A DNA stretch of 64,000 nucleotides from Sabellastarte sp. h YS-2021 (lineage: Eukaryota > Annelida > Polychaeta > Sabellida > Sabellidae). The DNA lies in contig OZ024933.1 in NCBI GenBank assembly GCA_964017235.1, positions 61,486,255-61,550,254 of the forward strand. Reading direction: 5' to 3'. Made by a program: the position numbers and the translations under genes. The notes below the pieces were generated by a model that was not told where the DNA came from, searched no databases, and worked only from the letters and a program-made list of their open reading frames with translations. This document shows positions 16,271 to 43,259 of this stretch, in pieces. Positions within the stretch are counted from its first letter, which is position 1. The number at the start of each line of letters is the position of its first letter.

Positions 16271-16298
16271 CTATGTTTTACATGGTAAACTTTGTCAT

Positions 16299-18039: not shown

Positions 18040-18740
18040 CTTTAAAACTTTACAGATGCCTCAAGAGAAGGCTGGGGCACTCACTTGGGAGCTCTCACAA
18101 GAGGGAGTTGATCCCTGCCAGAAAGTAAGTTACATAAAAACTACCTATAACTAAAAGCGGTCTTTCTGGCCCTAAAAGAGTTTCAAGACCTGTTCAAACA
18201 AGATCCTAACCATAGCAACAGACAGTACAACAGTTGTTTTCTACACCAGCAAACAAGGAGTCATGAGGTTGGTAATGAATGTTTGCCCTACTGTGGCGAA
18301 TCCTAACCTGGTGCTCCAGGAATCAGGTGACCCTCGAGGCCCAATACATTCCAGGCCGGCTGAATGTGGTAGCTGGGAAGCTGTCCAGACTATATAGGCC
18401 AGATTATACAGAGTGCTTCCAGAGGTTTTCAGTTGATATGCACCATATGACCCCAACCTGAAATAGACCTATTTGCAACAAGGTTCAACAAGTTACCTCA
18501 GTTTGTGTCACCAGTTAAAGACTCCCTTGCCTTCCCTTGTTCTCAGTCTACCTTGGAAGGACCTGGACCCATATGCCTTCCCACCAGGAGCCATTCGGGG
18601 GAAGGTGGTGGCGAAACTAAGGGACTATCCATGCAGGAGAATCCTCCTGATTGCTCCAGGGTTGCCCAACATGCTCTGGTTCTGGGATCAGGTAGTTCTA
18701 TCAAGCCAGATCCTTCTGTGAATGTCCACACCTGCCCAAT
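18040..18740 (+). pseudogene. RNase H and downstream-domain relic of DIRS-A
   Basis: Frames carry DASREGWGTHLG-like sequence near 18055, an ATDSTTVVF-like motif near 18215, HIPGRLN-like (QYIPGRLNVVAGKLSRL) near 18335-18400, and the APGLPNMLWFWDQV stretch near 18650. This is the usual DIRS order of RNase H followed by the methyltransferase-like module. It is interrupted by stops. Confidence 0.75.
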
Positions 18741-18799
18741 CTGTTGACTCAGCCATTCAGTCAGATTCTACACAAAAATCTGTCGAACCTAAATCTCCA

Positions 18800-20484: not shown

Positions 20485-21925
20485 TAGGCAGTTTGCATGT
20501 AACCAATCCGCCTATTAGATTGATGTGTCTGACATCAGTCTGTCCGTCCACATTTTCGTTTCCGGACTCAAACTCGAAAATGGTTTGTCCAATCGAATTC
20601 AAACTTGACCGGGAGATAGATCACCATCATAGCTAGGTTCCTTTCAAAATTGGTTAATTCCGTCTGTCCGTTTTTTGTCCGTCAAAATTTCTGTTTCCGG
20701 ACTCTAACTTGAAAATGGTTTGTCCAATCGAATTCAGACTTGACAGAGAGATAGATCACCATCATAGCTAGGTTCCTTTCAAAATTGGTGTAATTCCGCC
20801 TGTTCGTTTGTCCGTCAAAATTTCTGTTTCCGGACTCTAACTCAAAAACGGTGTGTCCAATTAAATTCAAACTTGACAGGGAGATAGATCACCATCGTAG
20901 CTAGGTTCCTTTCAAAATTGGTGTAATTCTGTCTGTTCATTTGTCCATTTTTTGTCCGTTTGTTCGTCAACATTTCTGTTTCCGGACTCTAACTCGAAAT
21001 CTGTCAAAATTTCCGTTTCCGGACTCTAACTCGAAAACTGTTTGACCAATCGAATTCAAACTTGACAGGGAGATAGATCACCATCATAGCTAGGTTCCTT
21101 AAAAAATTGGTGTAATTCCGTCTGTTCGTTTGTCTGTTTTTTGTCCGTTTGTCTGTCCATCAACATTTCCATTTCCGGCCTCTAACTCGAAAATGCTTTG
21201 TCCAGTCAAATTCAAACTTGACAGGGAGATAGATCACCATCATAGCTAGGTTCCTTCGAAATTGGTGTAATTCCATCTGTTAGTTTGTCTGTTTTTTTGT
21301 CCGTTTGTCTGTCAACATTTCTGTTTCCGAACTCTAACTTGAAAATGCTTATTCCAATCGAATTCAAACTTGACAGGGAGATAGATCACCATCATAGCTA
21401 GGTTCCTTTCAAAATTGGTGTAATTCCATCAGTTCGTTTGTCCATTTTTTGTCTGTTTGTCTGTCAAGATTTCTGTTTCCGGACTCTAACTTGAAAATGC
21501 TTTGTCCAATCGAATTCAAACTTGACAGGGAAATAAGTGACCATCATTGCTAGGTTCCTTTCGAAATTGGTGTAATTCCGTCCGTTCGTTTGTCTGTCCG
21601 TCAACATTTCCATTTTCAGACTCTAACTCGAAAACGCTTAGAGCGAATTAGAGCGAATTCAAACTTGACAGGTAGATAGATCACCCTCATAGCTAAGTTG
21701 CTTTTGAAATTGGTGTAATTAGGTCCTTTTGTTTGTCCATTTATAGCATAGATACAATTATGTAACCTAGATTACAAGTTTTACATTTCTTAGCATGCCT
21801 AACACATTCACCTTAACTGGGTGACCTAACATTTCTTTCCTTGTTTTTAAATTTAATTACAGCAGTTGCTAACCTTATTGCTGCCTGCGCAACTCGCCTT
21901 TTGGAGCATCTTTGACCCTCTTGTT
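20485..21925 (+). mobile_element. Hairpin-ended element, family HT-IV, copy 3
   Basis: A degraded head (aggcagtttgcatgtaacc, then aatccgcc) starts at 20485. The body holds about eight units of 120-165 bp with gagatagatcaccatcatag blocks. The terminus gcgcaactcgcc and tail tttgaccctcttgt end near 21924. It has the same orientation as copies 1 and 2, so the decayed DIRS-A lies between direct HT-IV copies. Confidence 0.65.
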
Positions 21926-22565: not shown

Positions 22566-24494
22566 ATGCACACATCCGATTAAAGGCTCAACGAATTGTC
22601 AACTGTAATTCTGTACTTTTTTCCTTCTAATAAGTAAAACTCTTAGCTGAGAGTTTTGTTTTGAAAAAAATTCTTTGCACAATTTCAAATACAGAGAATA
22701 TTTGCCTGAATAAATATCTCATATATTTGGTTTGACTTAAACAGAATACCTTGGTTGAGGTTTGCAGAGACAATAACTTGCTCTTAAGCGTGCCCTTTAA
22801 TATAACTTTTGACATGGTTTATTATACTCAGAGAGATATATAATTTAATTATTTGACAAATTTCCATAAAATAAAAGGAGAATCAGTAAAGTTATTTTGC
22901 TTTTGAACTGTTACATTTCGACTTGTCTGGTACATATAATTCAAGGGGCGTAGTTTATGTGTTTTGTTAGAATTACTAATGAGATTATACAATACCCCAT
23001 CCCCTAACAAATGTTACACATAACCACAGCTTTCTGAAAATTAGTGCATACCAAATAAAATATCCTGGCTCCTCCCCTGAATTTAGGTGCCACTGTATCA
23101 AGTGTGTAACCCATGTCACAGGCAATGGGAAATTTGTAATATGTCTTGCAGCGACATGTGGTGAAATTATCTTATATGTACCTCCAAAGCAATTAGTTAT
23201 TACTATTAATTTAAATTTCACGCAAGGAAAATCTGTCAATGTGCATGATGATCCAGATTTTCCCAAAAGTATAAAGTATTTGTGTGTTTTTGGAAACAGT
23301 GTAAACTATTGTACACTTAAATTATATTCATATATTGGTGTACGTTAGAGATTCCATACACCAATACTATATATGTAATGTACGTGTGGGGGTTTCATAA
23401 TAATGATTAAATGTTTCATTGCACGTGACCTTGTCTTCTTGCAAAAGGACAAGAAATTTGATTGATTTCCTCCCTTGTGTAACAGGCACTATGGGTGTTG
23501 CATAAGTAGACAGATACCAGGGTTACACATGCACGAATTAAACGAACAAAACTTCAATAACCCATAGATTGATAAAATCGGCAATAATTTGAAATTGGCT
23601 ATTGTCAGATGTTAATAGCTAAGCTGAAAGTATTATAAAATCCAAAATATGAAAGTTCTGTTTTTAATACTGGTTCAAGGTATACAATAAATTATTAGCA
23701 TATTTTATTTTCTAAGTTGTATTACATTGAAAAACAGTTGTGATAAAATGAAAAAAAAAAATACGCGGGAATCGAGAGGTAAAGATTAAAATAATCAAGA
23801 AGCGACTTAATTATAATCTCTCAGAATCGGTTTTTAATAAAAGTGAAAATGATTAAGTTAAACAATAAAATTTCCAGTTTACTTTACAATCCATATGACA
23901 CATACAAGGTGTATAGTAATTACAATGAAGACAAAAAAGAACTGATCAACAAAACAAAGAACAGTTAAGTATTTTAACCACAAATTATATACTGTTAAAT
24001 TTTGCTGGAGGCACTTAATTGTTTCCCCCCTGAGGAATCTTGTAGGTGTGACCTAGACAAACACTGACCCATTTTAAATACAGCTTCAGGTTTTTCCGAT
24101 CATTTCATGTGTTTGTGTCATATAGTAGGCAGGTCAGGTACAAAGTAGGTAGGTTTTAACATTAGCTGTAACAACAGATTTTCATTGTATAATTTAAGGG
24201 TTAATTATAATTGCGAATGATGCATTATCATTTTACCTAATATTATATATATAGTCTACTTAATATTCTAACAAGTTTAACTTGTATTGTGTTTGTTTCT
24301 TCTGCATTTTCGGTAAATAGATGTGCATCACCAATGCATCTGATATACGTTACACTGAGTTTACTGCTTCAAATTTCTGCCATCAAAAGCTTTACACAAG
24401 ACTTAATTATCAGTTTTTGTTTGCTTATTGTGAAAGCTTGGGATACCGTCAGAATTTTAAATACAAATAAACACCTGTCTTCACTTTGTGCTTT
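22566..24494. other. Upstream region or 5' UTR intron of the lyase gene
   Basis: AT-rich, no coding motif. An inverted repeat (tatattggtgta ... tacaccaata) lies at about 23331-23370. A non-coding first exon of the lyase should lie in or before this region because a splice acceptor precedes the start codon. Confidence 0.4.
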
Positions 24495-24496
24495 CA
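24495..24496 (+). other. Splice acceptor before lyase start codon
   Basis: The tract cttcactttgtgctttcag is a strong pyrimidine tract plus AG, followed by tgaccATGG. It implies an upstream 5' UTR exon and argues against starting translation at the in-frame GTG at 24488. Confidence 0.7.
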
Positions 24497-24502
24497 GTGA
24501 CC

Positions 24503-25969
24503 ATGGCTGAAAATAAGCAACCGTTCAGGAGCCTAGTGCTTAAACTATTGCAAGGATACAGAAAGGTAACAGATGACATCAGTTTAACTGGATGTGACTT
24601 GACCATTGCACAACTTTACCATATGAAGAAGTCAGGTCATCCTAGTGTCAGCATTGACAAAGATTCAATAGATGTCATGATAGAGAACTGTCAGTATTTG
24701 GAACAAAAGGTAAAGCAAGGCTGTGTGATATATGGAGTAAATACTGGGTATGGTGGCAGTGCTGATGTCAGATCCAATGATATCATTGAAGTCCAGCGTT
24801 CCCTGATCAGACATCTGAATGCTGGGTTTGGTGACAGCTTGCCAAGTGCTTTAGTAAGGGCTGTGATGGTTGTTCGGGCAAACAGTCTCTGTCGTGCTTA
24901 TTCTGGAGCCAGACCTATTGTTCCACAACTACTTTGTGACATGGTTAACTCTGATATCATTCCTGTGGTGCCAAAGAGAGGATCAGTGAGTGCAAGTGGC
25001 GATCTGATGCCAACGTCTTATATTGCATCCTGCATGGTGGGTAGGGAGGATGCTAAGGTAGAATACCATGGGCAGGTCACGACAGCAACAGAAGCATTTA
25101 AAGATGCTGGTCTAGTGCATGTAACATTCCAAGCCAAAGAAGCATTAGCTGTCATTAACTCAGCCTCATTTTCCTCTTCCCTTGCTGCCTATGTTCTGTT
25201 TGATGCTTCAATTGCAGCTTTTCTCACTCAGGTTGCCACTGCATTGTCAGTGGAGGCTCTACAAGGACGGGTAGAAAGTTTTCATCCAACAATCCACAAT
25301 TGTCTCCCTCACCCTGGTCAGCAGGAAGTGGCACAGACAATTGCTTGCTTATTGAAGAGCTCTAAGTTTGCAATTCAGAAGCTAGAAGTTAACAGGAAGG
25401 ACAAAGCAGATGCCCTGAAACAAGACAGGTATGCCCTACGATCCTCACCACAATGGCTTGGGCCAACACTGGAAACTCTACAGGAGTCCATCCGAAGGGT
25501 TCAGATTGAGCTAAATAGTGCCAATGATAACCCTATCATAGACCACAGGAATGACGAAATCCTCCATGGAGCTAATTTCCAGGGCACTTCTGTAACAGTG
25601 GCTATGGACCAGGCCAGACAATCCGTTCAGCTATGTGGCAAGCTCCTGTTTGGACAAATGCAAGAAATTGTTAATTACACCATGAACAATGGACTGCCCC
25701 CAAATCTCAATGGCAGTGACATCACTACAGACTTTGGTTTTAAGGGCATGGACACTGCCATGGCTTCGTACATGTCTGAGCTGGATTTTCTGACCAATAA
25801 CATGAGTAACCATGTGCTGAGTACAGAGATGCACAACCAGGCTGTCAATTCCATGGCCTTAGTGTCTGCACGCTTTACACAACAAGCTGTGGGCATCCTT
25901 CAAATGATGTTATGCAACATAATGTGTGCACAGATACAAGCGATAGATCTAAGATGGCTCAAATCAGAG
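24503..25969 (+). CDS. Aromatic amino acid ammonia-lyase (PAL/TAL type), exon with MIO core
   Basis: MIO-dependent lyases remove ammonia from Phe, Tyr or His without an external cofactor. This exon encodes residues 1-489. Visible landmarks are YGVNTGYG with the catalytic Tyr77, the substrate-selectivity pair His104-Leu105 in LIRHLNAG, the MIO-forming triad Ala164-Ser165-Gly166 in GSVSASGDL, KQDRYALRSSPQWLGP, NSANDNPI, HGANFQGT and STEMHNQAVNS. These match plant and fungal PAL better than histidine ammonia-lyase, whose selectivity pair is Ser-His. The plant PAL pair is Phe-Leu; a His there marks tyrosine-using TAL and grass PTAL. The start has the Kozak context ACCATGG. The exon ends at tcagag followed by gtaag in phase 0. 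I infer a tyrosine or Phe/Tyr ammonia-lyase; an aminomutase is possible. Confidence 0.93.
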
Positions 25970-26149
25970 GTAAGAATAAGAATTCACCATGTATAGAATA
26001 TTGTTTGGTGGAATGTTGTGCAAGCTTTTACATTATAAATCTTCACGGAATTACTTTCTACAAAATGAAAAAAGATTCCATACACACATCTTTACAGTAA
26101 AAAATCTCTATTCTATATTAAAATCTATAATTATATCTAGAATCTCTGC

Positions 26150-26998
26150 CTTTAAAGACTGTGTGGGTATTGTTCTTACTCATGGCATTCAGCTTGGTAA
26201 GAAGAAAATCTTGTCCAGGGTATATCTGAGAAACTGCAGGAAGTTGTTACTTGGCAGGGACATTGGATGGGGGTGTAGGTTTACTATATGATGGTTTTGC
26301 CTTGATTTGACCTTTGACTTTGCTGTATTGACTTTGACCTTTGATTTATTGTAGGGGCTATTGTAGGATACTGTGAAGTGCAAAAAGTTGATACCTGGTA
26401 TGGTCATTGGTTATGGAATGAAGGACTACAGTCTCATGGTTTGACCTTGATTTGCTTTTTGACCTTGCCTCAGTGACGTTGATGTATAAAATCTTGTACC
26501 GGCTACATCCTGGAAATTGTAAGGTATAGGAAGTTGACACTTAGGACCATTGGTTGGAGAAGGTGTACAAAGACATGGTATAACCCCTTGGTTTGACCTT
26601 GAACTTGGCTCTGCAAGAATGTTTTCTACTGTCATATTTAAGACATATTTCTGTCATAAAGAAATATAGATTTCTGGAACTGATTATTATTAGAACTTTT
26701 ACCTAGTAGTGCAGTGTTCATTGACTGATATACTCCAATTAAGAAACTTTACAGATTAATAACTTTTATTAATTAATGCTGCCATCTTGCTGTTGAATTG
26801 TCTTATGTTTTATCTTTACATACATTTTCTCTCTGTTAAGCATAATTTCTCCTGCATTGTGACATAACTTGCTCTGTGTTGAAAATCTGCTTATCTTTGT
26901 AATGTGTCTTACCCTTATCTTTGTCTTGTGTGTCTCATGGTTTCCTAACACTATTTCCTCAGAGTGTAGGGTGTGGGCATCTCTGATGCTATTTTCTT
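26150..26998 (+). mobile_element. HT-III element copy 2, inside lyase intron
   Basis: The left end is degraded (agactgtgtgggtattgttc, compare agggctgtcgggatattatt in copy 1). The core has about three units with gtatatctgagaaactgcag, gttgatacctggtatggtca and tttgaccttgatttg phrases. The end agtgtagggtgtgggcatct then ctgatgctatttt matches the tail of copy 1. Non-coding. Confidence 0.6.
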
Positions 26999-27412
26999 TT
27001 TTCACAAAATTTTCTTTGTGAAAGTCAGGTTGCACATGTTCATCATGCATTGCCTTATTGTTGAGCAAAAATTTCCTTATAACAGATCTTAGGTAATAGA
27101 TGTTAGATAATAGGGCAGCATATGTGTATTTCATTAGACATTATTTACAACCAGTGTCCACAATTTCTCTCCACAAACACCACTTTTACACCAAAGAGAA
27201 AACTGTAATTTTAGTTTGATTATATATGACCTTTACAAGTTACAGGATTGCAACATTTCTAAGGTTGAATTTGCCTTTTAATTTTAACAAAACTTTATCC
27301 AATATTGTTGAAGCATCGTATCAAAAGGGATTTCTTTCCATGTTCAAGATATTTTTACATGTACATACTATGTACAGAACAGTTTAAAATATCTTCTACA
27401 TTTTTTTTGCAG

Positions 27413-27424
27413 ATTTCAAAACAA
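27413..27424 (+). CDS. Lyase candidate microexon, 12 bp (Ile-Ser-Lys-Gln)
   Basis: The acceptor ttttttttgcag at 27401-27412 is followed by atttcaaaacaa and then the strong donor gtaagt at 27425. The piece is 12 bp, phase 0 on both sides, and adds ISKQ between DLRWLKSE and VEFTLDS. The family has a helix at this position (DLR.LEENLK in plants), so a few extra residues fit. The flanking exons also join in frame without it, so it may be alternative or, less likely, a chance match to splice consensus. Confidence 0.6.
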
Positions 27425-27602
27425 GTAAGTGTTGTACTGTAAAGATTTACTACATTCTCAGGCTGTCATCCATTTTTATTCTGGGTACATCAAGCATTCT
27501 ACTGGAAGAGTGTGAATGGGTTACTAACAACCATACTGATAAATCTTGAGCATTGATGTATTATACATGTTATAATATTGCACTAGTTTCGTTATATTCT
27601 AG

Positions 27603-27864
27603 GTTGAATTTACTCTTGACTCACTGTTTGACAAAAACCATCTCACTGATTTAAGTGAATTAAGTCTTATCAGAAAATCCTTTCCTTGGTACAACTTCGC
27701 CTTCAATGCCAAAAGCACAGCAGAAAGCTTACTGAATGTGATCCCAACCAACGGACTGGACAAGGAGCTTTTCTGTGCTGAGCTAGAAAGAAGCATGAAT
27801 CGACTGATGAAGAAAACCAGGGACAATAAGCACCTAGCAGAAGTGGAAAGTCGTATGGGAAAAG
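27603..27864 (+). CDS. Aromatic amino acid ammonia-lyase, C-terminal helical exon
   Basis: The acceptor is ttatattctag at 27601-27602; the exon reads VEFTLDSLFDKNHL... and ends MGKG at the donor aaaag/gtactt, phase 1. Lengths agree: 262 bp here plus 173 bp in the last exon make 145 codons including the stop. This is the C-terminal helical extension that distinguishes eukaryotic PAL-type enzymes from shorter bacterial HAL and TAL. No stop or frameshift. The following intron is 11,031 bp and contains DIRS-B and DIRS-C. Confidence 0.85.
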
Positions 27865-28179
27865 GTACTTGAGGAAATGAAAACTAGTCAGATACTTGTT
27901 AAAGAATACATAATTTTATTGCATTAATATGTCTTACAAAACAGACCATTGCCACAGGTAGGGCGCAAGTCTGTCCCGCCAAACTTCAGAAAAAGATGTA
28001 CCCCGTCTCCTCCAGTAGCACCGGCTCCATTTCCCCCTTTACTCACCAGGGGCTAGTGCCTCCCATACATGCCAGGTGGCTATGCCTTAATTTCCTCTTT
28101 TTTGTTTGGCGCATTCCAAACAGACACTTAAAAAGGCAGTCTTTCTAATTCTTCGATATTTGTGTTAATTCAAGGGTTT

Positions 28180-30085
28180 TTTGTGTGCCAGAGCATTTCT
28201 TTTGTGGATCCATCTCCTGTTACTGTCATTGGACCCACTGACACTGACATTATGCATACTTCTAAGTTCTAACACTTCTCCAGTCAAGGCTACAACTAAA
28301 GCTTCTGATCAACAATTGTCTTCCCACTTCACCAGGCTCGAAGCTGTATTAGCATCTGTGGGTGCTCTTCCCCCTTCTCATCAGAAAGGCCATGTTTTCT
28401 GCTGCCAGGGTCTCAACTCCCCAGTTGATTGGTCTCTACTACTAACTTTATCATGCAATCTACACCCCTCACCACTGTTACTGCTTTGGCTAGCCACAAT
28501 GCCCCTGGTTCAGACCCTGATTCTCCCCAGTTGAACTGGTTCGGTTGACCCGAGACTTTCTTTTTGCTAAGAGTCCCTCTGCGTCAGCAGACGTGGTACA
28601 AACTCCTGTTTCCTGGCATATCCCGGTTAGTTCAGCTGATCAGGCTGACCACCCTCAGGAACCTCTAGCTTCCTCTTAAGCGGCAGAGGGAAGTGCTACT
28701 TGGTCAGTTAGCCGCCAGCAGGCTCCTCATCAGGCCTTCCTGCCGGGTCAAGTCTTCTCATAGATCCTGGTTGCCAGCTCTACCCTGAATTCAAGCCAGA
28801 CTCAGAAACCTTCTCAACATATTTCTTAGGCCTTCACTACAGTCTGAAACTGGCCGACTGTCTTTTCAGATCAAGTAGACGGGATGTTAACCCTCAGGCC
28901 CTGGGTGATCAACGATATTCTTCACCTCTGGTAAATCTGTACCCGGACCAGGACTCAGAACTTCATAGCTGGATGCTTTGTCAGCCACTCCCTCCAACCA
29001 AGTTCCAGTTTCCTATGAGGATTTGCAGGAAGTTCCTTCTTGCTAAGAAGCTGACCCAGCTGACTTCAGAGTATCTTCAGTCTGAGGACCAAAGTTTCAA
29101 AGAGACTGTACATTGGCATTAGACCTTAAATGAAGTGGTCGTTCAACCCTTGGGCAGGCAGGCGGTCTCAACCGACCATTGAGGTCTCTGTTGCTATACC
29201 AGCGGACCACTAGTTCTGCTTCAAGTTGAACAGATGAATCTGCATCTCAGTCAAGGTCATGCCTCCAACACAGGTGACTGAAACTGGCTTCAGACCAATC
29301 AATTCATCAAACCACCCAAATCACAGGCGGGTATGCCATGCACCCTGGACCTGAGCCCTGTGTTACTAGAATAGGGTAATCAATCAAAAAGTAGTCGGGC
29401 AAAGCTTCCCCACTCAATAGTGCCTTCACAAGTGTCTCTTTCCCTTCTCGTCCTATCTCTAGAGACCATGCACAAGTGGGAGAAATCTTTTAAGGAATCT
29501 ACAGTTGTCTGCGACCAGGCTGCAACCTTCAATATGTGTGTTAGCAAAGTATAGGATGAAGTCCAAGACAACCCCAAACTTTTGTTTGGTGAATGCAGTA
29601 AAGGAAAATCTTCCTGGAAGACAGATAAAGCTCTTCTGCTTTTCAGCAAAATGTCCACTTTGTGCAGGCAATTTCCTCCTACACCAGGGCTCTTTCCCAG
29701 AAAACTACAAGCCCGGGGTCAAGCCGTATACTTGGTACCCTCTCAGAAACAGTCCTCCCTATCACTCAGCCTTATTCCCCGATGCAGTCATTGCAAAGGC
29801 TGAAGAGGACATTGTCAAATCTGAGACTGATGCCCGTCTCTCCTCAACCTGGTTCATGTTCTGGTAGGAGCAGACACAAAAATGGTCATTATCAGTCTTA
29901 CAAGTGAACTGGTCCAAGCACAAGGATGGTAAGAAGAAGTCACCTCAGGCTCAGGACAAAACTCAGGATATGCCCGCATGGCATAGTTTTTGGCAGCAGG
30001 ACCAACTTCTCCAGAGGCATGGATCAGGTGCTCCCAAGCATGGTAGTGGCTCTTTCAGGGGAAAATACAAGCAAAACAAATGACA
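28180..30085 (+). pseudogene. gag-region relic of DIRS-B
   Basis: It lies between the 5' inverted repeat and the RT relic and ends with a GSFRGKYKQNK-like basic tail, compare FRGPHKKRGS at the end of DIRS-E gag. Several short frames are broken by stops. The assignment rests on position and the basic tail. Confidence 0.5.
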
Positions 30086-30589
30086 GTTACAGTTAGTTAA
30101 ATCTTCCACAGAGTCTGTGGAGCGTACTGACTTTGTTTCTCTTAGCTGTAATGATCAGTGTTCTGACAGTGAGAAGACTCAGATAAAACTGATGAACAAA
30201 ACAAATATTGTAAATTGCATGTGTGTTGTAATTCTTGTTTTTGATTGTCTTTTCAAGGACGTCCATAGAAGAAAGGAGTAAGTCACACAAGGAGAAAGAA
30301 CAAAAGAAAGGCTGTAAATCATGCTTCTTTTGTAAATCACTTGTGCTCTGCTGCTCCTGTAGAAAGTGTCCACAAGGATATCCAAAATCTGCCTGTGGGA
30401 GGATGTCTGAAAGAATTCTGGCAAATCTGGGCCTCCAAGGTGCAAGCCCAAGTGTAGTGTCCATTCCTGAAAAACAATTACAACCTTCCCTTTAGTATAA
30501 ACCTCCCTCAACCAGAAACCCTTTAGTCAAAAGCGGATATGCAAATTCCCTCAGGAACAGCTACCTGCAGGAGGCATAGCATTCCCTTT

Positions 30590-31260
30590 TAGACAAGCAG
30601 GCCATGGAGCTGGTCAAGGTTGAATCCTCTCTTGCCTTTTAGAACCACATTTTCTTGGTCCCCAAGCCAAACAACAAGTGGCGCCCCCTCAGTTCTCTGA
30701 ACAAGTTCCTGAAGGTCCAAACCATCAAAATGGAAATTCCAAAATGGGTCATCTCCCTAGATTTCAGTGACACCTTCTTTTACATCCCTATAAGTCAGAG
30801 CTCAAGAAAATATCCTAGGTTCCACTGTCAGAATCAGACCTTCCAGTTTGCAGCCCTACCTTTTGGCCTATCCACAGCTCAAATGGAGTTTACCATTGTG
30901 GTAAAGGAGGTCAAACTTGTGGCTCAGACTCATTTTATTCAGATTCATCAGTATTTGAACGACCGGCTCATCTTGGCCCAGGACAGACATATAACCAACA
31001 CATCCAGTCCCTCCTTGCCCTTTGTCAGGAGCTAAGCAGAGTTGTCAACCTACAAAATCAGAACTAGATCCTCAACAAGTCTTCAATTTTGTAGGTTAGC
31101 AATAGGACATAAACAAGGATGAGGCTATAAAATCAGACTTTGTTCCCTGCTTTGGAGACTTCTGTCCTGGTTCAACCAGAGGAATATTGTCCTACAGGCA
31201 CGCCACATTCCAGGGAAGTTGAATGTGATTGCAGACAAGCTATCTCATTATGTCAGAAGG
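30590..31260 (+). pseudogene. Reverse transcriptase and RNase H relic of DIRS-B
   Basis: An open stretch (30655-31035) reads VPKPNNKWRPLSSLNKFLK, ISLDFSDTFFYIPI, FQFAALPFGLSTAQ and IHQYLND. The catalytic YLDD is altered to YLND. About 30 codons of the RNase H end (HIPGKLNVIADKLS) follow near 31205-31250. The middle of RNase H is deleted. Confidence 0.85.
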
Positions 31261-31439
31261 AATGGTCTCTTCACCATATCTGAAAATGGTGTAATACAGA
31301 TGAAATCAAACCTTTTGCCACTGGGTACAACAGGAAATTTCTCCTGTTCATGTCCCAGTGATGGCAAATTATGTAAACAAGATTCTGTTCGAGAATAATA
31401 CAGATAGCCCTACATACTGTGGTTTTGGAATCTATTGAT

Positions 31440-31565
31440 CCCATCAGGTGAACTTTAAGACACAATCTATAAACCAGAGAGCCGACTTCCTCCTGTATCT
31501 TTTCCAGAAGAAGCTTCAACCATCCACCATAGATCAGGTTACAGAACTGCCATAGCAGATGAGGT
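31440..31565 (+). pseudogene. Tyrosine recombinase fragment of DIRS-B
   Basis: Only the N-terminal piece ADFLLYLFQKKLQPSTIDQ survives, matching DFLMYLFQDWKLQPNTIDG of DIRS-C. The catalytic half is missing. Confidence 0.7.
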
Positions 31566-31786
31566 TAACTTTATCACTTAGGTCCCATAGTGGCAGCTCA
31601 GCAAAATCACAATTGACTGCTGACCATTAGGACTTTATTACCTCCCATTGTATTTGTCTCAAATATTCGAGGAGGTATCTCTTAGAAGGGTAGAAGGGTT
31701 TCCCTTTTCCAGACCTCAGATAATACACCAGAACCTCATGCCAGTCTGAGAGTAAGATGTTTTTGCTTCCCTGATCTAGTGCCATC

Positions 31787-31822
31787 GTGATATGACCTGT
31801 ACAGTGTTGAAAGCGACGTAAA
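31787..31822 (+). repeat. Dispersed SINE-like block
   Basis: gatatgacctgtacagtgtt followed by gaaagcgacgtaaa repeats the block found twice at 3535 and 3618. It lies inside DIRS-B and looks like a separate small insertion. Confidence 0.55.
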
Positions 31823-32267
31823 CCCCTGATCTAGTGGGGGTGGTGTACCTGGTCCAGTTTGGTAACCAGTCAAACCCAGGACCTAATAATCCTCCCTAGA
31901 GTTCTATCTTGTCCCTCCAGTAACCTAACCACCATCCTTCCAGTAGTTTTTCTGGTAATAGTCTGTTAGGTAAGATGTAAGTAAATTTGCAAATTTAATA
32001 AGTAAATTAAATTTTTATATTAAGTTAATACCCTATCCAATGGACAATTGCTAATCCGGTCAGCGCAGACCGGCCCGCCAAACGCCAGAAAAAGACGTCC
32101 TGTGTTTCCACCGGCCAGGCCGGTCCCAGTACTGTGCATTCGCCAGGTGGCGCATGGTATTTACTTCCTGTCTAGACAACATGACGTCAGCATCTTTTTC
32201 GTTGTCTAAACCTATTAGACCCCTAGTAAGCTGATTGCGGGGTCGGTGGGAGGATCTTGTGTGTCCA

Positions 32268-32350
32268 TTGGATAGGGTATTAACTTATAAAAATTTAATT
32301 TACTTATTAAATTTGCTATTTTATTGCGTTAATACATCCTACCCAATGGA
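32268..32350 (-). repeat. Internal complementary region of DIRS-C
   Basis: tccattggatagggtattaa followed by AT-rich sequence, attttattgcg (32318-32328), and taatacatcctacccaatgg. The left half is the reverse complement of the left terminus and the right half that of the right terminus, as in a joined circle. Confidence 0.85.
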
Positions 32351-32759
32351 CAATTGCTGAATAACTACCGCTTGGTCGGCGGGTAAGTTACTAGGGACTT
32401 ATGTGAACTCACAAGTAATAGCAAATTTTAACCTACGGTCTAGGCTGACTTTGTCAGGAGACCTATAGGCCCAGGCCTGGGTTGACCTTATGGTCAGGAA
32501 ACCCTGCAAGGCCATGGTGGTTGCCAGCAGCCAGTTACCCGGGGCTATACCGCCGTCGCCCCCCCCCCCCTTTTTGCAGACCTGCTCTGAGGTAGGGGAA
32601 GAGAGGGATTAGTTCAGTCCCAGAGTGCAAATAAACCTCCCGAAGGAAGCACGCCACACCTAATTCTTATGTACATAAGAACTGTTTATACATATATATA
32701 TAAATCTCCTCAATCTAAGGGCCCTTTGTGGATCTGCTGAGCAGCCACTACCGAGCCCA

Positions 32760-33990
32760 ATTGGTAAAGCTCTGAGTCAGCCCAAGCCACGCCCTTCAGA
32801 TAGAACTGTGTGAAGGTATTATGTGACTTCAATAGCAGGCTGACAAGATTGGATCTAAGGAGACTCCCGACTGGAAGACCTTAGAAGCAGCAAAAGGCCC
32901 TGACATCATGGGCTTTAACCTGATGTGAAGTGTGGGCCTCCTGGTCGGAGAGCTCATAACATAGGATCTCAGTCTGCTTGATTCAAGAGGAGATAGTGGC
33001 AGGTGAGATGTCTTTGTTGAAACCTTTCTTAAAGGAGACAAAACCCACCTCCTTATTCTGCCTGAGATTGGAGGTCCTGTCCACATAGTAGCGCAATGCT
33101 CTGACCGGACAGAGGGACCTGTCAGACTCGAGAGATCTATCTACAGTTGGGACCAGGGCTGTTATACCCCTTGGGGCCACACTGTCTGGACCCTCTTTGG
33201 CCACCTGATTCTTGGAAAGAAAGCTAGGTGATTGGTACAGGGACACCTTTGACCAGTCAGATTGGTGTCTAATATTTCTGTTTTGCCAAGCATGTATCTC
33301 ACTTCTACACTTGCCCGACCCCAGGGCCAAGCGGAAAAATGTCTTGAAGGTCAAATGCTTCAAGGAGGCCTCTTTAATTGGTTCAAAATGAACCTTGTCA
33401 GCTGGTGCAAAAACCAGGGAGAGGTTCCAGGAGGGGATTCCCTTCCGGCCTTTGGATCTGTCTCAGTGGAAACTATCCAGGAGACGAGTGATATTTTCAT
33501 CCTTACTGATATTGATGGGTGAATTTCCCAGTCTATCAGCAATGGCTGACCTGTAACCATCAATGGTATTGGGCTGCAACTTCCAGTCCTGAAACAGGTA
33601 CATAAGGAAGTCAGCAACTGACTTTACTGGGGGGCCCCGAAGTCCACCTGAGGAGTGATACATCACTTTGTAAAAAGGCCCACTTGCCTTATAGACTGAT
33701 CTGATTGATTCCCTTTGAGGAGCCTCAATTCTTGCTGTCACTGCCTCAGACAAGCCCCGCTCCTCGATTGCTGAGGCTCTAGGACCCATGCATGAAGATT
33801 CAGATTTGTCAGATTTCTGTGAGGGATCTGATTGAATGGCTGTCAACAGGTTGGGCAGATAGGGCAGGCTCAGTGGGATTTGGCTGGACATGGCCACTTG
33901 ATCCCAAAACCAAGGCATGTTGGGCCACCCCGGAGCAATCAGAATGATTCTCTTGCACGGGGAGTCCTGCAACTCCTCCACCACTTTGCC
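32760..33990 (-). pseudogene. Tyrosine recombinase of DIRS-C, frameshifted
   Basis: Long open pieces read VYKASGPFYKV..., ADFLMYLFQDWKLQPNTIDG, LALGSGKCRSEIHAWQ (catalytic Arg), CPVRALRYYVDRTSNLRQNK, SFKKGFNKDISPATISS, an HDV-like HxxR box, and finally SHNTFTQFYLKGVAW with the nucleophile Tyr (about 32785-32815). A missing G in the CxWK codons near 32835 and other shifts break the frame. After the Tyr motif it continues ADSELYQLGSVVAAQQI, which shows what is missing in DIRS-E. Confidence 0.85.
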
Positions 33991-33993
33991 CAA

Positions 33994-35280
33994 TATGGTG
34001 GATGGTGGGAAGGTGTATGCTTCCAGATCCTACCATGGCCGACTGAGTGCATCCACTGCTGTGGCCAGGGGATCCGGTACCGGTGACACAAACAGAGGCA
34101 ACTTGTTGTTGAACCTCATGGCAATTAAGTCTATTTGGGGCCGGTGCCACCTGCTGCATATTTAGTGGAAGACCTCTGGAAGGAGAAACCACTCTGTTTG
34201 GATGGTCTGGCCTAGCCTGGATAGCTTGTCTGCTACCACGTTCAGCCGGCCTGGAATGTGTCGGGCTTAGAGTCACTTGTTTCCTGGTACACCAGGTCAA
34301 GATTCTCCATAGTAGGGCACAAGAGGGCCCGACCTCATGCCTCCTTCCTTGTTTATGTATGACACTACTGTGGTGTTGTCGGTTGCTACAAGTACTATCT
34401 TGTTTGAGCAAAGGTCTTGGAACTCTTTTAAAGCCAGAAAGACTGTTTTAAGTTCTAGATAGTTTATATGCAGCTTGCTTCCCGGAAGGGACCCAGTTCC
34501 TCCTGCAGTGTGCTCGTTTAAGTGAGCGCCCCACCCTTCTATTGATGCGTCTGTAAATATTTGCAGAGCATGTTTTATTGGGTGTAATGGTTGGCCTGTA
34601 AGTACATTGTCTTCCTTCAGCCACCATTGTAAATGGGGTTGCAGGGACCTGGGGACTTGGATCACCTTTTCTAGTAATTCTGGTACCCTCCAGTTGTTTT
34701 TGAGATACCACTGTATGGGTCTCACATGAAGTTGGCCTAGATGAACTAGCTTTTCTGTAGCTGTTAGTATCCTATCAAGGACATGAACTCCCGGACCGGG
34801 CAAGCCGGTGGGGATAGCCGTTTTAGCATAGTCTCTTGAAGGTTCTGCCACCGGTCCAGAGTCAGTCGGAACCGATCAGACAGATCAAAATCGAAGTCTT
34901 GTTGGGGCTCCAGCTCTGATTTCTCTAAGTTCATCAGCCGACCCATTTGTTGACACATTATTTACTAGTTCCTGTGTATGTTGGAGACAAGCCTGGTGGG
35001 ATCTGGCTCTCACCAACCAGTTGTCTAGGTACTGGTGGATTCTTAAATCTTTGTGTATGGCCATCAGTTTCACCTACTTTGGAGTCACGGTGAACTCCAA
35101 GGGTGCTGTGGACAGACCGAATGGCAGGGCCTTGAACTGGTATGCCCGACCTTGGATGTGAAATCTCAGGTATTTCCTGGATTGTTCCTGTAGGTATATG
35201 GAAGTGGGCGTCCTTGAAATCTACTGAGGTAACCCACTCCCCTTGGTCTCAGAAAGGCTTGGTTTGTCCAGACCTAAAAT
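33994..35280 (-). pseudogene. RT and RNase H of DIRS-C, broken
   Basis: Readable pieces in shifting frames are KLMAIHKDLRIHQYLDNWLV (RT catalytic YLDD as YLDN), an RNase H stretch with the acidic residues in FTDAS, YLELK and ATDNTTVV at 34297-34570, ADKLSRL-like and APGWPNMPWFWDQV. The order matches DIRS-E. It is inactive by frameshifts. Confidence 0.85.
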
Positions 35281-35749
35281 AGGTCTCCATTGGCTGTGTA
35301 ATTTTGGAACCAAGAAAGGTCAGCTGAAGAAGCCCAGAGATTTTGAACTGGCTTGACTGCATCTTGTCTTGGTTCCCAAAAAGGATTTAGTCTAGATCCT
35401 ACAGGCAGATTGTGTTCCACATTTGGGACATTTGGAAGTCTGACAAACATTTCCGGTCCCTCCGGACACCAGTCCGGTCTAGTGACAATGATCCAAGTTA
35501 ACAGTCTCTCTGTTCTTGTTGTGGTCCGGTCAACTTTTCACCTTTACACTCTTTGCCCCACACCAGCTGCCTGCAAGACGTGATGAAAACTTGTTTGACT
35601 GTAGACTACCTTTCCTATTTTTCCAGTCAAGCCCAGAACCGAGTACAGGCTGTAAGAGGTGTGATAAGGCAAGGTTGCCTGATAGTAGCTTTGGAAATTG
35701 CCATATCAAGACCACTGATTGGTCTAAGAATTTTCTGAAACCAAAATGA

Positions 35750-36470
35750 CCTTGGGCAACTCTGTCAGGTACCAGGTCTCTGTAACCGGTAATTTCCTGT
35801 AACCAGTAATTCTCTGTAACCGGCAAACTGGTAGGCTGGAGTCACCCCTGAATTTAGACAGCTACTGGTCTATATTTAGCTAGTAGGTTTAAGTAATTCT
35901 TGTAAATGCTTCCACATCTACCTGAAGAGTTGAATGGATTAGGTGGGTAGACTCTGTAACCGGTTTTGGTGAAGCAAGGTTGTATAGCCGGTACCTTGTC
36001 GGCAGGCTTTGCAACCAGTGGTTGAGGTGATCACTCTGCAACCGGTTTTGGTGAAAATAAGGCTGTATTATAAGCCGGTAAACTGGTCTGGTGACTTGAA
36101 GACTCTGTAACCAGTCAGTTGAAGCCATATTTGTAGATACTTGCTGTCTACCTGCCCCAGAATCAACGCAGAGTTGAATGGACTGGGTCGGATGACTCTG
36201 TAACCAGTTGGGGGGGGGGGGGGGGTCGGGTAAGCTGTACCAAGGCTGTGTAGCCGATACCTGGTCAGTACACTCTGTAACCAGTTGTTGAAGCAACTGT
36301 ACGAGGCTGTGTAGCCGGTCGGTATACTCTGTAACCAGTTGTTGAAGCAAGTGTACAAGGCTGTGTAGCCAGTACCAGTCGGTACACTCTGTAAACAGTT
36401 GTTGAAGCAAATGTACAAGGCTGTGTAGCCAGTACCAGTCAGTACACTCTGTAAATAGTTGCTAAAGCAA
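35750..36470 (-). repeat. Microrepeat array in the gag region of DIRS-C
   Basis: Repeats of about 60 bp with gtaaccagttgttgaagcaa and ggctgtgtagccggtacc phrases fill the place where gag would be expected. A run of about 17 G lies at 36210-36226. Short minus-strand open frames rich in Leu/Gln/Ser repeats are by-products. Confidence 0.75.
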
Positions 36471-36599
36471 TTTTACAACTATCTTTTGTGATTAATTCAG
36501 CTTGCTGTAGGTTTCCTCCATTAATTAATTTAATTTAATTAATTTAAGTATTTCTTTAATCCCACGTCTTACTTGTAGATTTGACAGTTGCTGGGAAAG

Positions 36600-37440
36600 C
36601 CCTTGTGAGCTATTTTTAGAAGCACTTGTTGTTCGGTGTGTCACGTGACCTGCTTGCTGGTCAGAAAGACACGTGATTGGCTGATTGGAGCTCGTCAGTT
36701 GTCACGTTCTTTTGTGATACTTAAACATGCAAATGCGCAGTATTCTGCTCATCCACAAACCCCACTACCGACAACGAAGGCCGGTCCATGAGAGAGGGAC
36801 TGGTATCTCAGTAGACGTGAAGTTGTGAAGAACGCAGTTCCGACCTTCCTGGTCGATGAAAACACGTGACCAGATTCGTGATTTGGTCGGAAGGACACGC
36901 GATTGGCTAACTGGAGATGACGTCAGTATTTGCGTTCTTTGTGCGATGCTTTACTAGCAACTTTACAGTCCGCAAAACCCCACTACCGACAACAAGGCCG
37001 GGTCTGCAAAGCAGGGACTGTAATCACAGTAGACGTGAGTTCTGAAGAACGCACTTCCGACCTTCCTGGTCGGTGAAAACACGTGACCAGCTTCGGGATT
37101 TGGTAGGAAGGACACGCGACTGGCTGACTGGATATGACGTCAGAGGTCACGTTCTTTTGAGCTGGCCGGCCGGCTGATGCTTTTAAAGCAGAGAAGCCTG
37201 GACCGGTGCGCTCTGTAGATGTGTAGATGAAATTCCTTCCTTCTTTTCAGCCGGCTGTGCACTCAAACCAGTGTCCTGGCCATCCACTGCCCTTATTGCC
37301 GACACACGTGCCGGATCCACAAGGGTGGGACTGAGAGTGAAATTCCTTCTATGTCGTAGATATGAAGTTTTGATGAAAAACACTAAATACTCGAGCTAGG
37401 CTGGTGTGACTGATGCTTTACAGCAGAGAAGTCGGTACCA
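36600..37440 (-). repeat. Three about 220-bp repeats in the 5' part of DIRS-C
   Basis: The phrase ggacacgcgattggctaact-type is found at about 36668, 36893 and 37108, each time after cacgtgacc and before tgacgtca, with cccactaccgacaac and ttccgaccttcctggtcg repeated between them. Direct repeats in the 5' untranslated part, possibly containing the promoter (CRE-like tgacgtca motifs). Confidence 0.6.
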
Positions 37441-38435
37441 GTGCGCTCTGAAGAATCTGAAGAATGCATCTCTTGCTTGGGGAATTCCTTCTATTTACAG
37501 TGTTCAAAACTACGTAGATTGAAGTTCCCCGTGATTTCTATTGGTAGTACTAGAAAAGACGTTTCTATGGTGACTGTAGCCTCAAACAAAAGACACGGAT
37601 AAAAATACCTGTAAGCAGTATATCCATAATTCCTCAATATTGTCGATCTGCCCCTAACAACACAAAGGTTGAATGGGAGGAAACTAGTAAATGGCTGCTT
37701 TTATATTTCGCGTCGTAACTGCCCTATCATCAACACTAAATTGAGTCAGCTAGGGAGCGTTTCCAGCAGATTTAATAATGTATATCCGTGCTTGAGATGT
37801 AGATAACACTTTTAAACTAAAATATTTGCAATTCAGGTGAAAAATCCATCATAATGCACACTTTTCCTTAAAATATCTGGAGATTGTTGAAAACACGTTC
37901 GCACAGTACACGCGCCAAACGAAAAAGATGCTGACGTCATGTTGTCTAGACAGGAAGTAAATACCATGCGCCACCTGGCGAATGCACAGTACTGTGACCG
38001 GCCAGCCGGTGGAAACACAGGACGTCTTTTTCTGGCGTTTGGCGGGCTGGTCTGCGCCGACCGGAGTTAGCAATTGTCCATGTCCATTGGATAGGATGTA
38101 TTAACGCAATAAAATCAATTTTTATAACTTAATATCTTACCTAACAGACAGGGGAGTCCCACCCTCCATCCCCCTTTTGTAATCTTATTGGAGGCTGTTT
38201 AAAGGTGAACCTTTCAAACAAAAATGGGAAGTTGCGTCATAGCCACCTGGCGAGTATGAGAGGCACTACCCCCTGGTGAGTAGAGGAGTAAATGGGAACC
38301 AGACTGGCTGGAGGAGACTTGGGATGCCTTTTTCTGATGTTTGGCATGACCAGCTTGCGTGGGACCTATGGCATTGGTCTGATAAATAAGATATTAATTT
38401 TTAAAAATTGAATTTCCTTATTAAATTTTCTAAAT

Positions 38436-38895
38436 AATTAGTCAGGGTTTAAACTTAGTAAAAATAGTTTTATTTTTTTTATCATAAATAGCAGTTCTGC
38501 AAATACTGTCAGATAATTTGACATAAAACAAACCATTTTATATAAATGTTAAGAGAAAATGAAAGTAGAAAATGCATGGCAATAAGTTTATAAAATAGCG
38601 ATGAATATTTAAATAATTGTCATACAATAGAGAAATAAATTTATCAGTGTAAAAAATAAAGAAGGGGGTGGGGGGTGGGTCAAAATATTCATGAAAAGAG
38701 TAATGATTTAAGAGTATGCACATACTAAAATAACAACTCGAGTGTGATCAATGATGATCCCTGGTCAGCATATGTATGGCTGTATCTTTGAATCAAACTC
38801 ATGAAACATGAGTGAAATACTTTTGGCCTCCTCTATTGTGCCCACACCGTTAATACAGACACAGAGCATAACTTTGAATATCTACTTTTCTCCAG
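38436..38895. other. Remaining lyase intron sequence
   Basis: AT-rich. It ends in a pyrimidine tract tatctacttttctccag that forms the acceptor of the last lyase exon. Nothing else seen. Confidence 0.6.
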
Positions 38896-39068
38896 GAACA
38901 AAGAAAATGTACAGCTTTTTGAGGAGGACCCTGAAGATCCCTTTCTACTGTGGAACCTCCCCACTTGATGTGTCTCTGCAGAAAATTCATGATTCCATCA
39001 AGACACAAAACATTGACACTGTAGTTGAAGAATTGTTAGAAAAAGTGTGTTCAGTTTCAGAGCTCTAA
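38896..39068 (+). CDS. Aromatic amino acid ammonia-lyase, last exon
   Basis: The acceptor is cttttctccag at 38885-38895. The exon continues the split Gly codon and reads TKKMYSFLRRTLKIPFYCGTS..., ending VCSVSEL and a stop at 39066-39068. This matches the C-terminal PAL segment (YPFVREELGTGLLTG... in plants). With the upstream exons the CDS totals 1914 bp, 637 residues. In-frame joining across an 11-kb intron containing two retrotransposons is the main support that the gene is intact. Confidence 0.87.
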
Positions 39069-40079
39069 AAATGTCGATTGTCTTGTGTGATTTGGTGCAT
39101 GCTACTCATTCACTGGAGTGATGTAATGTAGCTTGAATTACAAAGCAGAAAATATGATTTTCTAGAGTGACGTTTTGATTTTTACCCCACAGCTGGTATT
39201 ATTAAGTTAACCTGGATTTTGTAATGCAAATTTAAAATGGTTGGGTCTGTCTTCACAGGAAAATTATGATGTTTAATTCACATGAATGAGATGTAAATTA
39301 GTTGCCATTCAGTAGCCAAGGCTATTTGTTATAGCTCACTCATATACAGGAGTATAACACTGCTGTACCCTGACTATTCATGAGGTCATAGTTATATTAG
39401 CTACTGAAGCACATACACTGAAGCACTGCCAACAAGATATACGTCAAGTAGCAAACATAAAATTTGTTAAGCGAAAAGGTCATCATAGGTAACATTAAAG
39501 CAATAAATTATATACTACCGTTATCTCCTTGCAAATACCGTAACACACAAGTAGAACACTGTGGTGGATTATGGTGAAAATGTTAAGACTTGATACTTCA
39601 TAATTTAATTTATTATTTCAACCAAAGTTCCGCAGCATATTCCTTTGATGTTATAATGTACCATTCTGCATTTTAGTTTTAAGGGGTAGTCTTTTGAAGT
39701 TAACAAAATGACAGCTACAGTCCAAGGTCTGGTGGAAAAAAATCTCTTACTTGTATTCACTATGTTAGGAAAATTTACATTTGTGTTTTTCTACCATATT
39801 TATGTGTTAATATAAAAGTAGCTGTAGTTATAGTAATATAGGATATATATTTAACATAGCAGAACTCTGTATTTATAGGTAACTTTTTTGCGCAAGGTGG
39901 AATGGATATTTACTAGTTTAATGTGCTTTTTTACTGTAAAAGCTGTTTTGGCTAAATTATATTTTTTGGAAAGTGTAAATCAATGTGATTGACTGAATAA
40001 AAATATTAATAGCTTTAGTACACTATGCACCAAAATTATTCCATTTCCATTTTGAGTCAGTGCATAACCAAAACAACTT
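39069..40079 (+). other. Putative 3' UTR of the lyase and short spacer
   Basis: No coding motif. Candidate polyadenylation signals AATAAA occur at 39503-39508 and 39996-40001. DIRS-D starts about 80 bp after the second. Confidence 0.45.
39996..40001 (+). promoter_or_regulatory. Candidate polyadenylation signal of the lyase
   Basis: AATAAA in gactgaataaaaatatt, giving a 3' UTR of about 0.95 kb. An earlier AATAAA is at 39503. Confidence 0.4.
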
Positions 40080-41329: not shown

Positions 41330-41760
41330 CCTCACAAGACAAAGAGGTCTATCTTGAGTAAAACTGCTGTCCCAGTGATTGAGAGCTGGCATATCGACCG
41401 GCTTGACTGAAGTAGGCCCATCCGAAGCCAACTGATTCTTGGCTAACAAATGGTCAGAGCCACTTGTGAGCAATACTCATTTAAAGTAAGGGAAGACAAT
41501 GCTAACGAGAATACCCTTCTTCCTTTGCCTAATGCCAAAGTCAAAAGAAAGACCGTCTTGAAAGTTAATAACCTCCAAGAAATCTTCCCCAAAGGCTCAA
41601 AAGACTGTCTGGTGAGACCAAACAAGACCAGAGACAAAAGGTAAAGAAGGCTTAACCTATTGGCTACTGGATTGTCTCTATAGAAATATGTCAACAATCT
41701 ATACAGCTGAAGAGTTCTAGAGACTCATTTCCCTTCAAGGAAAGCAATCTACCATTGTTA
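41330..41760 (-). pseudogene. Tyrosine recombinase relic of DIRS-D
   Basis: An 84-codon open piece contains FEPLGKISWRLLTFKTVFLLTLALGK followed by GRR, matching the segment before and at the catalytic Arg in DIRS-E (HLTLKTAFLLALASSKRRSE). The conserved SEIHA part is lost. Surrounding frames are broken. Confidence 0.75.
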
Positions 41761-42810
41761 TTCTGTAACCAGCAATAGTAGATGGCTTAAGATTCTTTTC
41801 CTTAAAGAAATAATTAAGGAAATTTGCTACATCTAGAAAAGTAGAATCTGAGAAGTTCACCACAAAGAAGCCTCAGATGTGCATAGATCTACCAGGTCCC
41901 ACAACCAAGAACATCCACCATGACCATCATGATTCAATCATGATGAATCTGCACCTGAAGGTGGGCATCTTCCAAATCACCTGAAGAATCCTTGGCTATC
42001 CTGGTGCAACCATGATGATTGTGCACCTGTAGGTGATCATATTGAATCACCTGAGGAATGAGAGCCACTGGAACAAACACAAAGCTGTCCAGATCCTCCC
42101 AAGAAATGATTAAAGCACCTGTTCCCCAAGCCCCACAGTCTAAGAAAGGAAGCTTAAGATTCAGGATGTTGGATACTAATGGCAGAATGATTGAACCCAC
42201 CTGCAAGGGAAGCCCTAAAAGGAACCTTTGTGGAACAGATACACCAGATCCCAAAAATAAGACATCCCTAGCCACTCTGCTGCAATCCAGATGATTCTGC
42301 ACCTAAATCTTGGAGTAGCCCTTCTTAATAGCTACAAAAAGAATTTTCTTGCCTTTCCTGAGATCTTTGACTTATCAAGATAACCTCTCAAGGCTCTCAC
42401 TGAACAAAGAAACTTATCTGGCACCAAAGCATAATCTAAAGAAGGTTTCAAAGCAGGAATGACTACAGGTTGAAAATCAAAGGAGCCTTAGAAGCCAAAT
42501 GATTCACCTGTATCACCTGAATCAAGGTCACAGGACCAAACAAACTGTCCAGTCCATCCCAAGAAAAGTTGAAAAAGACAAGCTTGTGGTTCAAACTAGT
42601 TGCAAAACAAATCCATCATTGGTGATTGTAATCAAAGACAGATTTGATTGAACACCTGAATCAGAATAGAAGATTCAAAAGTCATCCAAAACACATTCAC
42701 TTTGAATCAACTTGACTCTCATGAACAAAGAATTTGTTGGAATATTTGTATACCCTGGGAAGTGATATGCCTGAATCTGAACCCATGGCATTCGTGCAAG
42801 GAATGATTCT

Positions 42811-43167
42811 TCAGATAAGGAAACACATTCCTGAAAGTGGGTACCTCCCTACCTGTTCAGATAGGAAACCACTGAAGAAATATCTGGGGAAATCAACAGA
42901 TTCAGAATCCGAATCAGACCTCCAAATGATTCTAAAGGTAGTAGCCCTGTTAATGTGGAGTCTTGACCCCTCATGATACAACAGACCACTGGCTGTTTGA
43001 TGCCATAATTGTGCATCCCAACCCTTAAAGAAAGCATCTAATAACAGAAGGAGATTGTGCTCCTTCTGATGAAGTAAAGGGAGCTCCTGCAAATTTGAAA
43101 AGTCGTTCCACCACTGAAGAGGATCCCTGAAAACCGCCACCAAAGAAATGGCTTCCTTAGAAACCAT
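42811..43167 (-). pseudogene. RNase H relic of DIRS-D
   Basis: The piece LQWWNDFSNLQ ... LLLLDAFFKGWDAQLWHQTA ... EGSRLHINR follows the RNase H pattern of DIRS-E (LDWWQNPSN ... LFTDASNEGWGAHLDQN). It ends before the second acidic residue. Divergent and inactive. Confidence 0.65.
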
Positions 43168-43259
43168 TAGCCGGAGAAGAAGCTTTGCTATGAGTAAAGA
43201 TGTACCCTAAGGTGGAATCTGCAATCCAAACTAAAAATCCTGGTACTTTAGACAAGATG

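Follow-up and report, generated by a model that had tools for sequence, protein, structure and literature searches.

Ammonia-lyases that carry the 4-methylideneimidazole-5-one (MIO) group work by a mechanism that is established for the whole family, and they are typically homotetramers. Phenylalanine ammonia-lyase (PAL), tyrosine ammonia-lyase (TAL) and histidine ammonia-lyase (HAL) all belong here. As regards their distribution, the relevant part of Emiliani et al. (2009; PMC2657906) describes a eukaryotic PAL cluster made up of plants and fungi only, together with a bacterial-type homologue in Dictyostelium, and infers from this distribution that a gene was transferred when the phenylpropanoids of land plants arose. 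The gene considered here lies in a 64,000-nucleotide stretch of the genome assembly of the annelid Sabellastarte sp. h YS-2021 (contig OZ024933.1, positions 61,486,255 to 61,550,254 of the forward strand; hereafter the window), where three exons between positions 24503 and 39068 of the plus strand are predicted to encode a PAL-like protein of 633 residues ending at a TAA stop. A sequence-only reading of this DNA had announced a PAL/TAL-type lyase gene in an animal genome, a claim that is borne out by family models, phylogeny and the presence of Wnt genes, even though the joined exons yield 633 residues and not the 637 proposed.

The family models single out PAL: the NCBIfam PAL equivalog TIGR01226 was passed with 525 bits (cut-off 519.15), and the HAL model TIGR01225 (297 of 539), the FlxA-type TAL model (255 of 700) and the BagA/FevW model (241 of 1000) were not. 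The models for phenylalanine or tyrosine aminomutases stayed far under their cut-offs (TIGR04473, 392 of 1250; TIGR04475, 258 of 800; TIGR03832, 233 of 501), and the beta-tyrosine-like products that the sequence-only reading had also envisaged are not supported. Searches of PDB sequences gave the best score for Taxus phenylalanine aminomutase (PAM)/PAL chains (386 bits), followed by plant PALs (348-362) and a fungal PAL (325), with lower values for a Nostoc PAL (267), Pseudomonas HAL chains (164-176) and a Rhodobacter TAL (164); several of these organism names are our assumption, since the listing mostly gives molecule names. Over the lyase domain, identity reaches 41-43% to the plant, Taxus and fungal PAL/PAM rows (40% to the fungal one in a second alignment), as against 30-36% to prokaryotic loci. 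The latter were gathered from at least 592 stretches matching the search pattern, 571 of which encoded a relative and the best 80 of which were kept. Further searches returned relatives with E ≤ 1e-60 in 11 of 386 genomes around a cyanobacterium, 18 of 301 around a chloroflexote and 5 of 385 around an alphaproteobacterium. A prokaryotic donor was rejected, nothing above about 36% identity having been found among the best 80 of at least 571 relatives or in these three genome sets.

The phylogeny agrees with this assignment. In a tree of 42 rows, of which 29 are bacterial or archaeal and 13 are references (the window protein and the HAL pieces of the same genome among them), the window protein falls within the eukaryotic PAL clade and all bacterial and HAL rows fall outside it, with support of 100/99; the clade, window protein included, returns in a tree of 19 rows (100/100) and in one of 33 rows from which the fungal row was omitted (100/99). 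For the prokaryotic part, 32 of 99 loci (L008-L106) were picked, three of them without a usable open reading frame (ORF) (L038, L041 and L049); overall, 95 of the 99 provided one. The two HAL rows are placed well away from the window protein, in a group (100/99) that they share with Lysinibacillus, chloroflexote and archaeal rows. Kinship with HAL, which the sequence-only reading had fixed beforehand as the decisive comparison, was rejected in the approximately unbiased (AU) test, both with the two HAL rows together (p-AU 8e-9) and with the HAL of the same genome (p-AU 2e-62). Groupings with the Rhodobacter TAL, the single TAL row (1.9e-7), with the grass (sorghum) row (1e-9) and with a cyanobacterial PAL (2e-6) were rejected as well, and a clade uniting the window protein with Taxus PAM was disfavoured (0.015). 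The HAL comparison apart, the groups were chosen with the tree already in view, which makes their p values slightly flattering.

Within the eukaryotic clade, the four seed-plant rows form a group that excludes the window protein (99/98 with 42 rows, 98/95 with 33 rows). Its weakly supported sister is the fungal PAL (92/68 with 42 rows; 82/79 with 19 rows, a tree in which the window and fungal rows are both long branches). The AU test rejected neither the union of the window protein with plants (0.14) nor that of plants with the fungus to its exclusion (0.28), and alternative placements in the 19-row tree gave p values of 0.17-0.18. With a single fungal row and four plant rows, the eukaryotic PAL sample is a thin set for ordering window protein, plants and fungi. 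The lyase is a deep branch of the eukaryotic PAL clade and may be sister to the fungi, the plants or the two together; either origin envisaged by the sequence-only reading, retention or transfer, may apply to it.

Does the protein look like a working enzyme, and for which substrate? To judge this, it was compared with 101 other rows in a large alignment (12 references together with the 89 prokaryotic ORFs that remained once identical ones had been removed from the 95) and with 22 in a small one. The MIO-forming triad Ala164-Ser165-Gly166 (24992-25000; this and all other lyase coordinates refer to the plus strand of the window) is identical in all 101 other rows, with the triad written into PDB rows wherever the chain shows the mature MIO. 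By alignment, Tyr77 of the Ile76-Tyr77 pair (24728-24733) is the catalytic tyrosine of the lid loop, and Gln307, Tyr310 and Arg313 (25421-25441) include a catalytic base and the carboxylate-binding arginine; Asn219, Asn343 and Phe359 are also conserved, together with the residues Lys414, Glu442 and Gln446, all three of the PAL type. All motifs listed by the sequence-only reading are present, namely the Ala-Ser-Gly triad, KQDRYALR (residues 306-313), NDNP (341-344) and His104-Leu105 (24812-24817) within LIRHLNAG.

It is this last pair, at the substrate-selectivity site, that points to tyrosine. His-Leu occurs in only two of the 101 other rows, 6at7, which we take to be sorghum PAL1 with activity on tyrosine, and 2o6y, presumably the Rhodobacter TAL. 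The pair seen most often is Phe-His (47 rows), followed by Tyr-His (19 rows), Ser-His (16 rows) and Phe-Leu (10 rows). Ile76 is not diagnostic on its own, being found in 68 of the 101 rows; the PAL rows of parsley and of Joinvillea (9pkh) have serine there, and the grass row has isoleucine. Two Joinvillea PAL chains, 9pkh and 9pkj, compared by eye over the printed stretch, differ at two sites only: before the lid tyrosine Ser becomes Ile, and at the selectivity site Phe becomes His. They were presumably made to study tyrosine use, and the window lyase possesses both Ile76 and His104. In the sections relevant here, PMC9002059 states that the selectivity site strongly influences the choice between phenylalanine and tyrosine, citing a His89Phe switch in Rhodobacter TAL, and PMC11949857 calls the site crucial for this choice. 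Use of tyrosine is therefore likely on the basis of these residues. What survives of the tyrosine-selectivity signature is a real and rare His-Leu pair at a site backed by the literature (PMC9002059); a preference of tyrosine over phenylalanine does not follow from it, as His occupies the same site in dual-function enzymes. Since kinship with the grass row was rejected, His104 either arose separately or is ancestral.

Individual relatives compare as follows. The grass PAL/PTAL 6at7 shares IYGV and RHLNAG, i.e. Ile76 and His104-Leu105, but the part following LNAG is longer by several residues and 6at7 has NGT, Tyr and Ile at sites altered in the window protein. The fungal PAL 1y2m, which we take to come from Rhodotorula/Rhodosporidium toruloides, has the same MIO chemistry residues, GGSAD after the lid tyrosine, a His at the selectivity site and a C-terminal extension; unlike the window protein, to which it is 40-41% identical, it carries His-Gln, NGT, Ile at the site of residue 418 and a longer shielding stretch. 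Phenylalanine aminomutase/PAL chains 2yii and 4baa, presumably from Taxus, are 42-43% identical and share the stretches SVSASGDL and NSANDNPIIDH, yet have Cys-Leu at the selectivity site. The Rhodobacter TAL 2o6y agrees in the His-Leu pair and the catalytic residues, but has Met at the site of Lys414 and Asn at that of Glu442, and is only 29% identical. The HAL of the same genome belongs to the same MIO superfamily, but its selectivity pair is Ser-His, residues 414 and 446 correspond to Met and Glu in it, and its gene consists of many small exons.

The lyase gene itself looks like a host nuclear gene. Exon 1 (24503-25969; residues 1-489) contains nearly the whole lyase domain, with every catalytic residue examined, and PF00221 matches its frame almost completely (profile positions 1-448 of 466, E 2.4e-140); it lies inside a stop-to-stop open frame of 511 codons, whose probability of arising by chance is about 4e-15 at the base composition of the window. 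Intron 1 (25970-27602; 1633 bases, phase 0) is followed by exon 2 (27603-27864; residues 490-576 plus the opening base of codon 577), an open frame with a TAG acceptor, a GTACTT donor and phases 0 and 1, in which the C-terminal extension begins. Intron 2 (27865-38895; 11031 bases, phase 1) contains tandem repeats and pieces of a DIRS-like retroelement, named by eye, and exon 3 (38896-39068), entered through an in-frame CCAG acceptor, supplies the C-terminal end with the motif MYSFLRR and the TAA stop. The junctions, predicted from the sequence as GT-AG, conform to consensus and keep the frame, and neither a stop nor a frameshift interrupts the 633 codons. The start ATG at 24503, within GACCATGG, stands five bases past an acceptor-like TTTCAG (in GTGCTTTCAG, 24488-24497), directly ahead of the start codon; an upstream 5' untranslated exon may hence exist. 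Downstream, AATAAA (39502-39507) would be a possible polyadenylation signal. A genome-wide search with the exon-1 protein recovered this one copy and no second match at E 0.1, and the other five matches to PF00221 are exon pieces of the HAL on contig C4, both searches having scored only the best candidates; a further search recovered seven HAL exon pieces there, an eighth (E 4.2) being discarded, and showed HAL to be a separate gene with many small exons.

The restriction of the eukaryotic PAL cluster to plants and fungi in the relevant part of Emiliani et al. (PMC2657906) might suggest that the gene is a contaminant or was recently acquired from a bacterium, a fungus or a plant. However, the genome (1.79 Gb, 647 contigs) yields 41 matches to Wnt, found in none of 14 control genomes (those named being prokaryotes), which supports its being an animal's; the window, on contig C7, also harbours the genome's sole match to ARPC4, 22 kb from the lyase gene; and the gene contains an 11-kb intron with retroelement-like pieces. 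Moreover, identity does not exceed 43% to anything compared (few plant and fungal sequences among them), and the four seed-plant rows form their clade without the window protein. The mollusc haemocyanin domain PF14830 matched neither this genome nor the controls, a negative that carries no information on the phylum. Taken together, Wnt genes, ARPC4 neighbour and introns make contamination very unlikely, and the whole explanation, recent transfer included, can be regarded as highly improbable.

The reading that we favour, with somewhat better than even confidence, is that the host itself encodes a functional aromatic ammonia-lyase, one that belongs to the eukaryotic PAL clade and accepts tyrosine; its membership of that clade is much surer than its being a working, tyrosine-accepting enzyme. 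How would such an enzyme operate? The Ala-Ser-Gly triad would self-cyclise into the MIO electrophile, to which the substrate would bind through its amino group; the beta proton would next be abstracted by the catalytic tyrosine, whereupon ammonia would leave and the trans-acrylate would be released. His104 would hydrogen-bond to the ring hydroxyl of tyrosine, so that L-tyrosine (giving p-coumarate) would be accepted as well as, or better than, L-phenylalanine (giving cinnamate). The enzyme would presumably be a homotetramer with a shortened shielding domain: the stretch from QAIDLR to the terminal motif measures 96 residues, compared with 133 in parsley, 126 in the fungal enzyme and 20 in Anabaena, and the joined C-terminus resembles that of the fungal RtPAL (only 4 of 2000 shuffles scored as well). 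Its role in the animal might, as a guess, be an ultraviolet screen, a phenolic for defence or the breakdown of tyrosine and phenylalanine.

Several observations weigh against this picture. The PAL model was passed by a mere 6 bits, the branch leading to the window protein is long (1.51 in the 42-row tree, 1.5 to 2.1 overall), and the protein departs from the consensus at 7 of 57 columns conserved in at least 95% of rows. Among these departures, Asn219-Ser220-Ala221 (25157-25165) replaces the Asn-Gly-Thr found in all 100 other rows with residues there (the row for the genome's own HAL lacks this piece); Gly132, present in 101 of 101 other rows, has become Ala; and Leu171, adjoining the MIO loop and present in 100 of 101, has become Thr. 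These three changes could weaken or change catalysis. Gly-Thr lies outside the residues by which membership of the PAL clade was judged here. In the pocket, Thr418 (25754-25756) stands where 81 of the 101 other rows have Ile, and both Thr418 and Phe411 differ from the grass and fungal rows, which have Ile and Tyr. We matched Thr418 to Ile447 of maize PTAL, a residue listed among those surrounding the ring in the relevant part of PMC9002059. The replacement of Asn-Gly-Thr by Asn-Ser-Ala and the Thr418 residue had both escaped the sequence-only reading, and departures of this kind may tune activity, change the substrate or lower activity. Finally, the shielding stretch is shorter than in parsley or the fungus, the likeness of the C-terminus to that of parsley or Anabaena is not above chance (311 and 303 of 2000 shuffles, respectively, as good), and the evidence comes from one genome.

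These departures leave room for other explanations. Perhaps the enzyme uses mainly phenylalanine and merely tolerates His104 without useful activity on tyrosine, given that Phe411, Thr418 and Asn-Ser-Ala differ from the dual enzymes. This fits with the PAL model being passed and the FlxA-type TAL model being missed, and with grouping among PALs while kinship with the Rhodobacter TAL was rejected, but it is rather unlikely in view of the His-Leu pair, which both other rows possessing it, each presumably active on tyrosine, share at a site described as strongly influencing or crucial for selectivity (PMC9002059; PMC11949857). A remodelled pocket might instead accept another aromatic substrate (a para-substituted phenylalanine, say, or DOPA) or carry out an aminomutase reaction, which would give a meaning to Thr418, to the loss of the otherwise invariant Asn-Gly-Thr and to the Taxus PAM/PAL chains heading the PDB matches; with the aminomutase cut-offs widely missed, a clade with Taxus PAM disfavoured and Cys, not His, at the Taxus selectivity site, we regard this as unlikely. 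That the protein is a folded but weak or inactive relative retained for some other reason, or the product of a gene in early decay, would account for the altered conserved columns, including Asn-Gly-Thr and the residue beside the MIO loop, and for the long end branch. It appears improbable all the same, as the 633 codons are uninterrupted, the splice sites are of consensus type and the catalytic residues examined are all kept.

The chemistry of such a lyase is known; novelty lies in the animal branch, the residue changes and the origin. It is conceivable, although at present doubtful, that animals possess their own, anciently separated branch of eukaryotic PAL, whose selectivity is of the tyrosine type and whose second shell has been remodelled at the otherwise invariant Asn-Gly-Thr. 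Were this so, the animal itself would make p-coumarate (or caffeate from DOPA), and an active enzyme would open a direct animal route from tyrosine to hydroxycinnamates. The published distribution, limited to plants and fungi and with one transfer when phenylpropanoids arose, would then have to be revised. By adding an animal as a third deep branch of the eukaryotic cluster, the gene makes the scenario of Emiliani et al. testable again. No study of an animal PAL appeared among the open-access matches listed, as judged from titles and the start of abstracts, most subscription journals lying outside this scope. Automatic annotation apparently already names PAL-like proteins in some invertebrates, for instance oysters, which would lower the novelty of mere occurrence. 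PALs also serve as phenylketonuria enzymes, which makes a naturally divergent active site interesting in practice.

The remainder of the window holds several other features. ARPC4, a subunit of Arp2/3, is complete on the minus strand (2204-2800) in one open frame of 198 amino acids and, this being the genome's only match, the gene seems intronless in its coding part. A Thr/Glu/Asp-rich open frame on the minus strand (48823-49311) is possibly an exon of a further gene; its 157-residue part starting with ATG, GTG or TTG had no Pfam match, and Rfam gave no match across the window at gathering score. Three long overlapping frames (53712-59066, minus strand) look by eye like a DIRS-type retroelement with reverse transcriptase- and RNase H-like stretches and a tyrosine-recombinase-like end; at E 0.01 Pfam gave no match to the 997-residue frame. 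Further DIRS-like fragments, also recognised by eye, lie at 16200-19800 on the plus strand and at 33000-35200, 41400-43200 and 63200-63700 on the minus strand, one set thus sitting within intron 2 of the lyase gene; one frame among them has a weak RNase H match under the cut-off (17.4 versus 24.8 bits). Tandem arrays, most with units 130-190 bp long and one with a 320-bp unit, occupy 4606-7686, 11155-16203, 20541-21597, 49754-50405 and 60687-61994, and the sequence TTTCCGGACTCTAACT is common to the arrays at about 15-16 kb and 20.5-21.6 kb.

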